DNA from: Cliona cf. orientalis | Taxonomy: Eukaryota; Porifera; Demospongiae; Clionaida; Clionaidae | NCBI GenBank assembly: GCA_963930775.1 | Contig: OZ005697.1 | Span: 2,604,001-2,668,000, forward strand | Length of the DNA: 64,000 bases | Direction: 5' to 3' | Shown here: in pieces, positions 424 to 62,374 of the stretch | Position numbering within the stretch: position 1 is the first letter of the stretch | Layout of the letters: every line of letters starts with the position of its first letter | Notes under the pieces: model-generated | What the model saw: the letters and a program-made list of their open reading frames with translations, nothing else | Database searches by the model: none | What the model was told of the DNA's origin: nothing | Made by a program: the position numbers and the translations under genes

Positions 424-3400
424 GTATACATTTATGTATATGTGACCTGCTCTGAGAAAAGGGACCACTCGGGATATTTCATAAAAGTTGAATTTTTAGC
501 ATGGATTGATAGCTTTATGTGTGCTGAATCCAATGGCGCAAGTTTCATGAAAAAAATTATCGATTACAAGTGGAATTATGATTTTTATACACACAGGTAG
601 ATATATTCGTTTTCGGAAAATGCACATATTTAATCAAATTTTGTATTAAGTTGTATGTGTCCGAGCAATTGTTTGCACCCAAGCATTACGATAGTTTACA
701 GCAACTACATAAACATAGCATATCAATATGAAACTAAAATTCTACATTTTTTGGTAGACTAAAATACAGAAAAATGATAAATATTTATTTTCCCCACATT
801 TTAGCTATTATTGTAAAATGAAATTTTATCCCAAGTGGTCCCTTTTCTCAGAGCAGGTCACATATGTTAGAATTGTTTGATTGGATAGTACTCGAAACGG
901 CAAGTTTTACCGAGCAGTTATCTTCAGAGAATCTTTGTTTGATTCATTATTTGTGCTGAGATGGATATACCTGATAATGAATTAAATATTAGGAACCTAG
1001 CTTTCATAATAATAGTTCATGGCTGATGATAATCCATTGTGCAGGAGGTGATTAGGGATGCTCTATTGAGGGGCTGCCTCCCTCTGGCTCAGTCCTACCT
1101 CATCCAAAGAGGACCTCAGGATGTGGTGAGTACATATACCGTATGGCGGGTAATTTTCGTGAGTGCTAATTAATTTTTGCGGAAAGTCCGAAAAGGCCCT
1201 CAAAACTAATTTTCGTGGTTTTAAATTTCATGACAGCAACCAGTCCAGGGGGCGTGGCACTGCTGCATAGAAGAATATAGTATCGAAGATGCTATCAGCT
1301 GGAGGACAGTGGCTACTGTTGCTTACTAGTACTGGAAAGTGTTGGCCGCGCTGTCACGATGTTTGTGGCCACGCCCATCATCACGGACTCGTATAATACC
1401 ATATCGGCGTGGGCATTAATTTTCGCGGGTAAGAAATTTTCGTGACTGCCAAGTCAGCCATGAAAATAATGAAAATTAACACCCCACGAAAATTACCCGC
1501 CATACGGTATGCGGGTACTTGTGTCTACAGATGTATTACTTATTATGATGTCATTATTACAGGGGCGTGGATTTGGTAGGAGCATCAGTCTGGTTGAGGC
1601 TATTGATGACTACTCAGGCTCCTCCCACTATGACGCCTCCCTTGGTAACATGATGACCACAGCGACCGGCTTTGTCATGGAGGCTCTCGACAAGAAGAAC
1701 ATAAAGCAAGCCACCTCCATACTCACTCAAATGGTAACCATGTTCAATTTCGTGCACTCTAGGTGTAATGCTCAGGGTCTTAGACGCAAGCAAATTGTTG
1801 AAGATTAACCATGTTGCAGAGTAGCTCTGTATTATAGCAGCAGATATACATGTAGACGCAATGCACACAATTGAGAGACTGACTAGCACACCCCTTACAA
1901 TCACTTTAAATAGTAACTGATGATTTCCTATACAATAACTCAATTTCCACATGATGAATTAATATTCAAATATCTATATTTCCTATATAGGCCTTATTAA
2001 TTTTTACAAGAAAATTTGTGTCAAAAGCTTAATTCTTGAAAGAAATAATCCCATATGACATTAATACTACAACACACATACAATTAATTTCAAAGTTGAA
2101 ATCAAGTACAAAACAATCAAATTCCCATAGGTATACGCTAATTACATGCATAATATGTCTATTTCACTTGGGATATTCCTTTAGAGACTAAAAGTGAATC
2201 TTTCAGTTGAAGATTTAGAAATTTGTTATTATACACACATATTATGGTACTGTATATTGATGTTGCCATTTCCTTCTCTCCATTCAGGGCTTGAATGTGA
2301 GGACCAGTCTACGCCACATCTGCTTCCACACCCTCAGCAGGCAGCTCAGGGACTTCCTGGTAAGAGGCAGTCTGTTCCTACGGGGTGGGCATATTAGTCA
2401 ACCCAGAGTATTTTTTTACTACATGTAGCTACATGTACATGTATATGCATGCTTGCAGATAGACCACTAATTATTGGCTTTTTGGGATTAATCTTTGCTT
2501 CCTCCTATCCCATGATCTCCCCTTCTCTCCCCTATCTCTCTCTCCTTGTCTCACTCTTTTGCACCTGTTACCTCATGTATGTCCGGTGACACCATGGATA
2601 TTCCTAGGATGTCACTAGTCACCCAGGATTACGGTGATAATCTTAAGATATCCCTTGAATTTGGTAGTGGGTAACTATACCATACTGGTGCTGATTCATT
2701 ATTCTGATTACGGTCTCATGCATAGGTTACTTACTATTCCTGGGATAATCTGGGGCTTCTATCACCTTATACTAAAATAGTGACAGTTTTCTCAGTCAAA
2801 GTGTACATGCAGTAGTCTAAACATCATAATCTTGAACGATCACCCATGCAGGCCAGTGAGCTATCTTCTCGTGACTGGTTGAGTGATGAGGAGCTTCAGA
2901 CTTTGGAGTATCTCCACATCCTGGAGAGGTTCTACCCGAATGAGTCTTATGAAGAAGCTCACAATCTGCAGCCCAGCCAACCAAGGTCAGTTTCAGTCGC
3001 TCTTTAATTGCTATAATTATAGCTAGGTACATGTATATATTTCTCGTATTCCCTTCAAATAGCAAATTGTTATATAATTTAAGGAACACAAGAGTTTTTG
3101 TAACATACCGTAATTCTTTCATCAGCTAGCTTATTAACCGCTAATATTTCAAGAGGAGATTAGGTGTCATTAATGCCCCTCTCATATAGTGCAAAGTCCT
3201 GATGCACGTATCAATTATTATTATTGTTTTTTGTACATCTCATGGTGCTGTTTCGTTCAATATTTAGGAAGAACAACTTTCAGTCTACGTCCCTTCCAGT
3301 GATGCCAGGCATGATCAGCCGCCCCACCTACATACCAAGCATTGGCAACCTCCAAGAACTGTACCCAGAAACATTCGGAGGAGTAAGTGCTTCTATATTC

Positions 3401-62374: not shown

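Follow-up and report, generated by a model that had tools for sequence, protein, structure and literature searches.

A stretch of 64,000 nucleotides of the sponge Cliona cf. orientalis (contig OZ005697.1, positions 2,604,001 to 2,668,000), here called the window, contains eleven short elements that begin and end with the same seven bases but differ in what lies between, and the question is how such elements come to share their ends. The original prediction was that a single transposase, reading only about 7 bp and belonging to no named family, had moved unrelated cargo.

Eleven short elements with a common tip

Each of the eleven elements (E1–E11, Table 1) begins with TACCGTA and finishes with TACGGTA exactly where it had been placed, and their summed length is 3541 bases, as claimed. 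Both tip sequences occur 13 times in the window and form 12 convergent pairs with a spacing of 100–700 bp, one of them a sub-pair internal to E4, and one divergent arrangement. Convergent pairs far exceed those in 200 dinucleotide shuffles (mean 0.05, maximum 4), and the expected enrichment over shuffled sequence is thus present. An isolated TACGGTA (6129–6135) lies inside the single 586 aa open frame (4665–6425) of an arginyl-tRNA-protein transferase, ATE1 (ATE_N and ATE_C domains).

Table 1. Elements of the window and the two frames of the E3 parent. Positions are those of the window, except that those of the L061 frames refer to that locus; L numbers denote loci of the same genome.
Feature	Position	Strand	Description	Match to transposase-bearing elements
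E1	1137..1509	.	MITE, 373 bp; arm TACCGTATGGCGGGTAATTTTCGTG	Ends match L063, pogo + HIRAN-Ulp1 element (79 % over 96 bp, 76 % over 98 bp)
E2	10922..11313	.	MITE, 392 bp; word TTAAGCGC	Ends match pogo element L050 549-2727 (85 % over 113 bp, 85 % over 102 bp)
E3	14235..14450	.	MITE, 216 bp; word AAATTTGGCGG	Ends match two-gene pogo elements L060/L061/L062 (84 % over 90 bp, 80 % over 87 bp)
E4	17999..18209	.	MITE, 211 bp; word AATTGCG	Copy, 93 % identical, nested inside pogo element L058
E5	35050..35191	.	MITE-like, 142 bp; E5/E7 family; 78 % to E7 over 125 bp
E6	39379..39730	.	MITE, 352 bp; word TTAAGCGC	Ends match pogo + HIRAN locus L064 755-3020 (81 % over 85 bp, 84 % over 45 bp)
E7	46993..47153	.	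MITE-like, 161 bp; E5/E7 family
E8	51940..52489	.	MITE, 550 bp; word ATAAGCCCCC; decayed HIRAN gene in interior (81-182 of the element, E 1e-7, and 229-273)
E9	59137..59522	.	MITE, 386 bp; word ATAAGCCCCC / TTACGCCCCC	Ends match pogo element L029 89-2429 (73 % over 101 bp, 97 % over 30 bp)
E10	59536..59880	.	MITE, 345 bp; word GCGGCTACT	Match in subterminal sequence, not at the tips, of pogo + HIRAN element L067 1236-3566 (91 % over 32 bp, 77 % over 53 bp)
E11	60559..60971	.	MITE, 413 bp; word TTAAGCGC; decayed HIRAN piece in interior, best match HIRAN of L064 (E 1.7e-5)	Weak matches to L050 (74 % over 86 bp) and L064 (86 % over 35 bp)
Tip example, TACGGTA	59874..59880	.	7 bp; outer TA is the target duplicate
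L061 transposase	1483-3012	minus	510 aa
L061 second frame	200-1306	plus	369 aa; HIRAN + Ulp1 C48

In nine of the eleven, the two arms form inverted repeats that match perfectly or almost perfectly over about 17–30 bp, the exceptions being E5, which has hardly any inverted repeat past the 7 bp tip, and E7, where it is imperfect. The claim that each interior repeats a word of its own family was examined by recounting a 9-mer of the inner arm in each element and in 100 shuffles of that element. It held for the same nine, where the recurrence was equalled by at most 1 of 100 shuffles, but not for E5, which has no further copy of its 9-mer, or for E7, where the level was reached by 66 of 100 shuffles.

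BLAST comparison placed the elements in seven groups (E2, E6 and E11; E5 and E7; E8 and E9; and E1, E3, E4 and E10 singly), roughly the eight kinds of interior that had been counted. That these are unrelated was overstated, as there is a weak BLAST match between two groups (E1 and E3), and E8 and E11, which fall in separate groups, both include remnants of one kind of accessory gene, encoding a HIRAN protein. Comparison with HIRAN and transposase proteins gave no match for the other nine window elements, or for reversed elements used as a control. Hence, the interiors of E8 and E11 are not unrelated cargo. Neither a plasmid search with E8 nor an Rfam search at the gathering threshold gave a match. 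Other MITE-like inverted repeats in the window lie at 438–865 and 20035–20729, and the latter starts TACAGTGCAACCAAGC, resembling the TACAGT pogo ends of this genome that are described below.

The ends are abundant in the genome containing the window (216.8 Mb in 149 contigs), where TACCGTA-N100-130-TACGGTA occurs 541 times and the backwards pattern 106 times. With up to two mismatches, there are 418 single ends of E8-type, 970 of E5/E7-type, 1519 of E4-type and 1926 of E3-type, and the backwards control gave none for any of the four.

Sites with and without an insertion could be compared in four cases, namely E4, E6 and the pogo elements of L023 and L063. Empty sites show a single TA and filled sites the element and a second TA, which supports the predicted mobile elements that insert at TA and share a very short tip. 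The empty site for E6 is a paralogue within the window (37074–37148), that for E4 a sequence 84 % alike at 18680–18780, and the L023 and L063 pogo elements were compared with window E11 and locus L006. For L059, L069 and E8, the alignments had gaps or were ambiguous where element and flank join. In the flanks of 28 elements, A was found at −1 in 20 and T at +1 in 18.

The window also includes three similar PTR2-type transporter genes or fragments (37076–38745, 40427–42081 and 42847–44553; the third is PTR2 at 52.5 bits), and two of the copies form a large inverted repeat with arms (40441–42023 and 42860–44443) that are 90–91 % alike. As 37074–37148 lacks E6, this element probably inserted after the transporter duplication. 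Two pogo elements of different families, L023 449-2798 and L063 135-3132, occupy the same TA of an E11-type MITE (GGAAAG/TA/TRTGGAGTCC), which suggests a preferred nested target. In a further case of family clustering, an E4-type element (1501–1615) adjoins an E11-type MITE (1809–2260) at L006.

Transposase-bearing relatives and their arms

A search of the genome for the pogo transposase domain DDE_1 gave at least 150 matches. Thirty of these loci were cut out and searched for inverted repeats; nine had TACAGT ends (L007–L011, L013, L015, L017 and L019), three had TACCGTA ends (L023, L029 and L032) and 18 had no clear pair. The transposase of L032, used as a query, gave at least 87 matches and added further TACCGTA elements. 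Autonomous-type elements with the same ends had been anticipated, and a pogo transposase was found inside TACCGTA...TACGGTA in 17 elements of 1874–3116 bp, representing 15 families: L029, L023 (=L040), L032 (=L039), L041, L045, L047, L050, L051, L057, L058, L059, L060, L061, L062, L063, L066 and L067, with L060–L062 a single family. As these 17 were selected by the 7 bp tip, its invariance among them is by selection. One further relative, L064, carries E6-type arms, and its left tip has decayed to TACCATA.

MITEs are short, have inverted repeats, lack a transposase and share the ends of an autonomous element. Five of the eleven (E1, E2, E3, E6 and E9) are linked to a transposase-bearing relative by their ends, E10 is linked subterminally and E11 weakly, and for E4, E5, E7 and E8 no parent was found among the transposase-bearing elements of the genome that were compared. 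Locus L069, considered as the parent of E8, turned out to hold two E8-ended elements and an element of another family. One of the E8-ended pair (83–1973, 1891 bp) holds a 441 aa frame with a reverse transcriptase domain (RVT_1, 57 bits), a captured or inserted piece of a retroelement.

DDE_1 scored above the Pfam cut-off in the five elements scanned for it (L050, L051, L057, L061 and L067) and in L047. The helix-turn-helix domain HTH_Tnp_Tc5 was over its cut-off in five of the 11 families scanned, together with BrkDBD in three (L067, L039 and L029) and alone in two (L050 and L041). In L047, L057, L058, L061 and L066, HTH_Tnp_Tc5 was below the cut-off and BrkDBD gave no match, and L051 matched neither. 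The spacing between the second and third D, readable in nine of 14 TACCGTA frames, is 35 residues in five, 36 in three and 34 in one. It is 34 in three of four TACAGT transposases, the fourth being unreadable by pattern, and a CENP-B_N domain is present in L007 and L017 of the TACAGT elements and absent from L009.

A maximum-likelihood tree was built from the 26 transposases with known ends; 31 of the 57 pogo rows, with no recognised end pair in their flanks, were left out. The 17 TACCGTA and nine TACAGT transposases lie on opposite sides of one branch with a support of 100/100, and the type of tip changes once on the tree, as opposed to a mean of 7.7 times when shuffled. Many branches within the TACCGTA side are poorly supported.

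The arms are not uniform along their length. Among 30 arms from 15 families, positions 1–7 are common (by selection), positions 8–12 hold only 0.03–0.38 bits, and a weak common box follows at about 13–25 (A at position 16, 1.15 bits; T at 19, 1.01 bits; G at 23, 1.35 bits). A fixed tip, a spacer with next to no information and a family-specific box thus make the arm bipartite. Distance between inner arms (positions 8–28) tracks distance between DNA-binding domains (Spearman Mantel r 0.55, p 0.0008, 13 families), though shared descent alone could produce this correlation, which the Mantel test does not separate from co-adaptation. The inner-arm word recurs in the terminal 200 bp of eight of the nine parents examined, L041 being the exception. 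The original prediction took the repeated words for possible accessory binding sites, and they do have the look of such sites.

Taken together, these comparisons of sequence make it very probable that E1–E11 arose as non-autonomous deletion derivatives (MITEs) from a diverse, Passer-like clade of the pogo superfamily in the same genome, each family having been mobilised by a transposase lineage of its own. Helix-turn-helix domains at the N-terminus would read the family-specific inner arm (about positions 13–27) and the subterminal repeats, and the DDE catalytic domain, which the whole clade conserves, would cut the common tip at TA/CCGTA and insert at TA, duplicating it. Derivatives that keep box and tip could then be mobilised by the parental transposase and come to outnumber the parents found. 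The interiors would appear unrelated because every family goes back to an ancient parent of its own and to a separate deletion; the legible parts appear to be the ends of parents or decayed accessory genes.

A second gene in many parents

In L061, one of three copies of the E3 parent, two long frames have their 3′ ends facing each other (Table 1). The second frame scores above the cut-offs for both HIRAN (PF08797, 26.8 bits, cut-off 24.7) and the Ulp1 protease family C48 (PF02902, 23.8 bits, cut-off 20.7). HIRAN is also over the cut-off in L057 and L059 and under it in L063 and L032, whereas C48 is over the cut-off in L063 and under it in L057, with no C48 match listed for L059. A tblastn search using the HIRAN proteins of six elements located HIRAN inside the ends of 15 of the 17 TACCGTA elements, weakly in L029 (E 5e-4) and L040 (E 1.6e-4), and found none in L058 or L066. 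HIRAN lies on the strand opposite to the transposase in all 15, and in L029 and L067 the genes are head to head, not tail to tail. Many of the parents are accordingly two-gene elements, with a pogo transposase and an opposite-strand HIRAN protein that is fused to a Ulp1-like protease in one subclade. The three copies of the E3 parent (L060–L062) are 99.4–99.8 % identical over 3.1 kb and have unrelated flanks; hence, it moved as one unit, carrying both genes, and recently. HIRAN also lies inside the inverted repeats of three of the nine TACAGT pogo elements with known ends (L010, L015 and L017), and its association with pogo therefore extends beyond the TACCGTA clade.

Four HIRAN-Ulp1 proteins from four families, 43–50 % identical to the first row of their alignment, have H266, D284, Q316 and C322 (L061 numbering) invariant. 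We take these to be the Ulp1 catalytic positions. A profile of the four matched solved structures of SENP1 and of a Ulp1-like SUMO protease (best E 4e-5), over the protease half only, and matched no HIRAN structure. In a C48 search of the genome only three of 22 matches (C4:7927663, C6:9300361 and C19:3801873) adjoin a listed DDE_1, because the element-borne proteases score low with Pfam. Searches of viral and prokaryote contigs for relatives of the HIRAN-Ulp1 protein or the transposase gave pattern matches, none of them confirmed, as expected for a eukaryotic element. The end patterns themselves gave 0 and 2 matches in viral contigs, and the two, in phage-like sequence, look like chance.

The N-termini of several transposases share a short motif (IMSLYRFF in L061, SMSLLKFF in L057, QMSLLRYF in L059, QMSLYRYC in L063 and TMSILKYF in L066; SRKITEFF is found in an upstream frame of L032), which was not seen by eye in L041, L050 or L067. 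The pattern [LI]xx[FY][FYC], defined post hoc, is found at none of 3211 positions past residue 60 in nine transposases. The motif resembles PCNA-interacting (PIP) boxes, and PCNA binding is putative. Drosophila pogo and Tigger have been linked to PCNA.

What the second gene might do is suggested by HLTF, whose HIRAN domain recruits it to stalled replication forks and prefers fork-like over single-stranded DNA, single-strand 3′ ends being the suggested ligand in the available text of PMC4666394. If the HIRAN partner were to hold on to gaps or 3′ ends, its combination with a SUMO protease and a transposase docked on PCNA would fit a cycle of transposition that is tied to replication repair. We offer, tentatively and as a rather doubtful proposal, that in the two-gene class the PIP-like motif docks the transposase on PCNA while HIRAN(-Ulp1) handles excision ends or gaps and removes SUMO from factors of repair or silencing, which would tie transposition to the Rad5/HLTF-PCNA-SUMO system, with decay of the partner giving MITEs such as E8 and E11.

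No report of a transposon-borne HIRAN gene was found among the papers listed in searches of mostly open-access literature. HIRAN goes unmentioned in the available parts of PMC7386202, PMC9976928 and PMC7325037, and papers naming both a HIRAN domain and a transposable element are, judging from the title and the opening of the abstract, not about a transposon HIRAN gene. The two-gene pogo element with HIRAN(-Ulp1) is thus apparently new, and the MITEs themselves are of a known kind. The papers listed for the end sequence look unrelated, and in one of them it is part of a primer.

Alternative explanations and known systems

Were the tip alone recognised, one promiscuous transposase could mobilise any DNA that it flanks, as in the original prediction, and the identical tips in all eleven window elements (and, by choice, in the 17 parents), the near absence of common information at arm positions 8–12, the scant inverted repeat of E5, the reverse-transcriptase frame in a TACCGTA element (L069) and the four elements without a parent among those found all fit. 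We nevertheless think it very unlikely, as for several families a separate transposase-bearing parent was found, whose inner arms match and which has words of its own, the inner arm and DNA-binding domain co-vary, and a tip-only enzyme would not maintain inverted repeats of 17–30 bp in nine of eleven elements. Limited cross-mobilisation between related families is possible. The prediction had named different autonomous partners with different termini as evidence against itself; the partners do differ, but the terminal 7 bp are identical. That several unrelated superfamilies, for example ISL2EU and Tc1, converged on a similar tip is more improbable still. Arms that appear unrelated past 7 bp would be expected, and 2 bp duplications are found in both ISL2EU (AT) and Tc1/mariner (TA), but the parents found, DDE_1 being the sole transposase domain searched, are pogo and lie on one side of the branch that divides them from the TACAGT pogos. 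A non-pogo partner may exist for E4, E5, E7 or E8. ISL2EU (PHIS superfamily), suggested by its 2 bp duplication, also has two-gene elements in animals, but, as far as the available text of PMC4482050 describes it, has an AT duplication, usually a GG start, a THAP-domain transposase and YqaJ as the second gene, and was ruled out by the TA duplication and CCGTA start found here.

The HIRAN gene could instead be a chance neighbour, or a captured host gene, beside pogo and not part of the element. Most HIRAN matches listed genome-wide (79 of 97, or 74 after allowing for five that adjoin weaker pogo fragments) are indeed more than 2.5 kb from any of the 150 DDE_1 matches listed, HIRAN is missing from L058 and L066 and weak in L029 and L040, and six of the nine TACAGT elements with known ends lack it. 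However, 18 of the 97 have a listed DDE_1 no more than 2.5 kb away, where random placement gave a mean of 0.46 and a maximum of 4 in 1000 trials, and all 18 pairs are on opposite strands, 14 of them tail to tail. HIRAN sits on the opposite strand within the inverted repeats of divergent elements, the two-gene unit is found at three unrelated sites (L060–L062), and the four Ulp1 residues H, D, Q and C do not vary among four divergent families. Hence, we regard a chance or captured neighbour as improbable.

Among the elements found, one genome holds 15 natural versions of a transposase in which the tip is fixed and the adjoining sequence and DNA-binding domain diverge together, a series useful for studying DNA reading by pairs of helix-turn-helix domains and the origin of new MITE families. 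The pogo transposons are the source of CENPB, POGZ, POGK and several TIGD genes, according to the available text of PMC7386202. If the two-gene structure is general, HIRAN-Ulp1 would give pogo a second component aimed at the host replication-repair and SUMO machinery, and some HIRAN genes in animal genomes would be transposon genes.

Some Mutator-like and KDZ transposons carry a Ulp1-like protease, though their transposases are of a different superfamily from pogo, and we know of no HIRAN fusion in them. The TACAGT pogos of the same genome are alike in superfamily, TA at the ends and, in three of nine, HIRAN, but differ from the TACCGTA elements in the CAGT tip, the CENP-B_N domain (L007 and L017), the spacing of 34 and their side of the tree; their CENP-B_N domain makes them Tigger/pogoR-like. 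Fish interspersed repeats starting TACCGTATTTT, with the repeated word ATAAGNCGC, presumably have the same architecture. The three variable positions in fish inverted repeats described in the available text of PMC9976928 fit these repeats.

Though the original prediction knew of no named family, the parents belong to the pogo superfamily and their features are closest to those of Passer, as far as it is described in the accessible parts of PMC7386202 and PMC9976928. Common to both are DDE_1, the TA duplication and inverted repeats of up to about 30 bp, and the lengths are similar (1.9–3.1 kb here, 1.6–4.0 kb for published Passer). The HTH_Tnp_Tc5 of Passer, accompanied by BrkDBD or alone, compares with HTH_Tnp_Tc5 over the cut-off in five of the 11 families scanned here, three of them with BrkDBD, and the DD35D of Passer compares with 35 residues in five of the nine spacings read here (full range 34–36). 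Unlike Passer, one large subclade gives no BrkDBD match, and the single transposase ORF of Passer in the available text of PMC9976928 differs from the opposite-strand HIRAN in 15 of 17 elements here (two weak), while PMC7386202, in the part available, gives Passer elements one or two ORFs encoding transposases. Our tree includes only transposases of this genome. As the one-ORF structure is a description and not a rule of membership in the available text, we refer to the clade as Passer-like.
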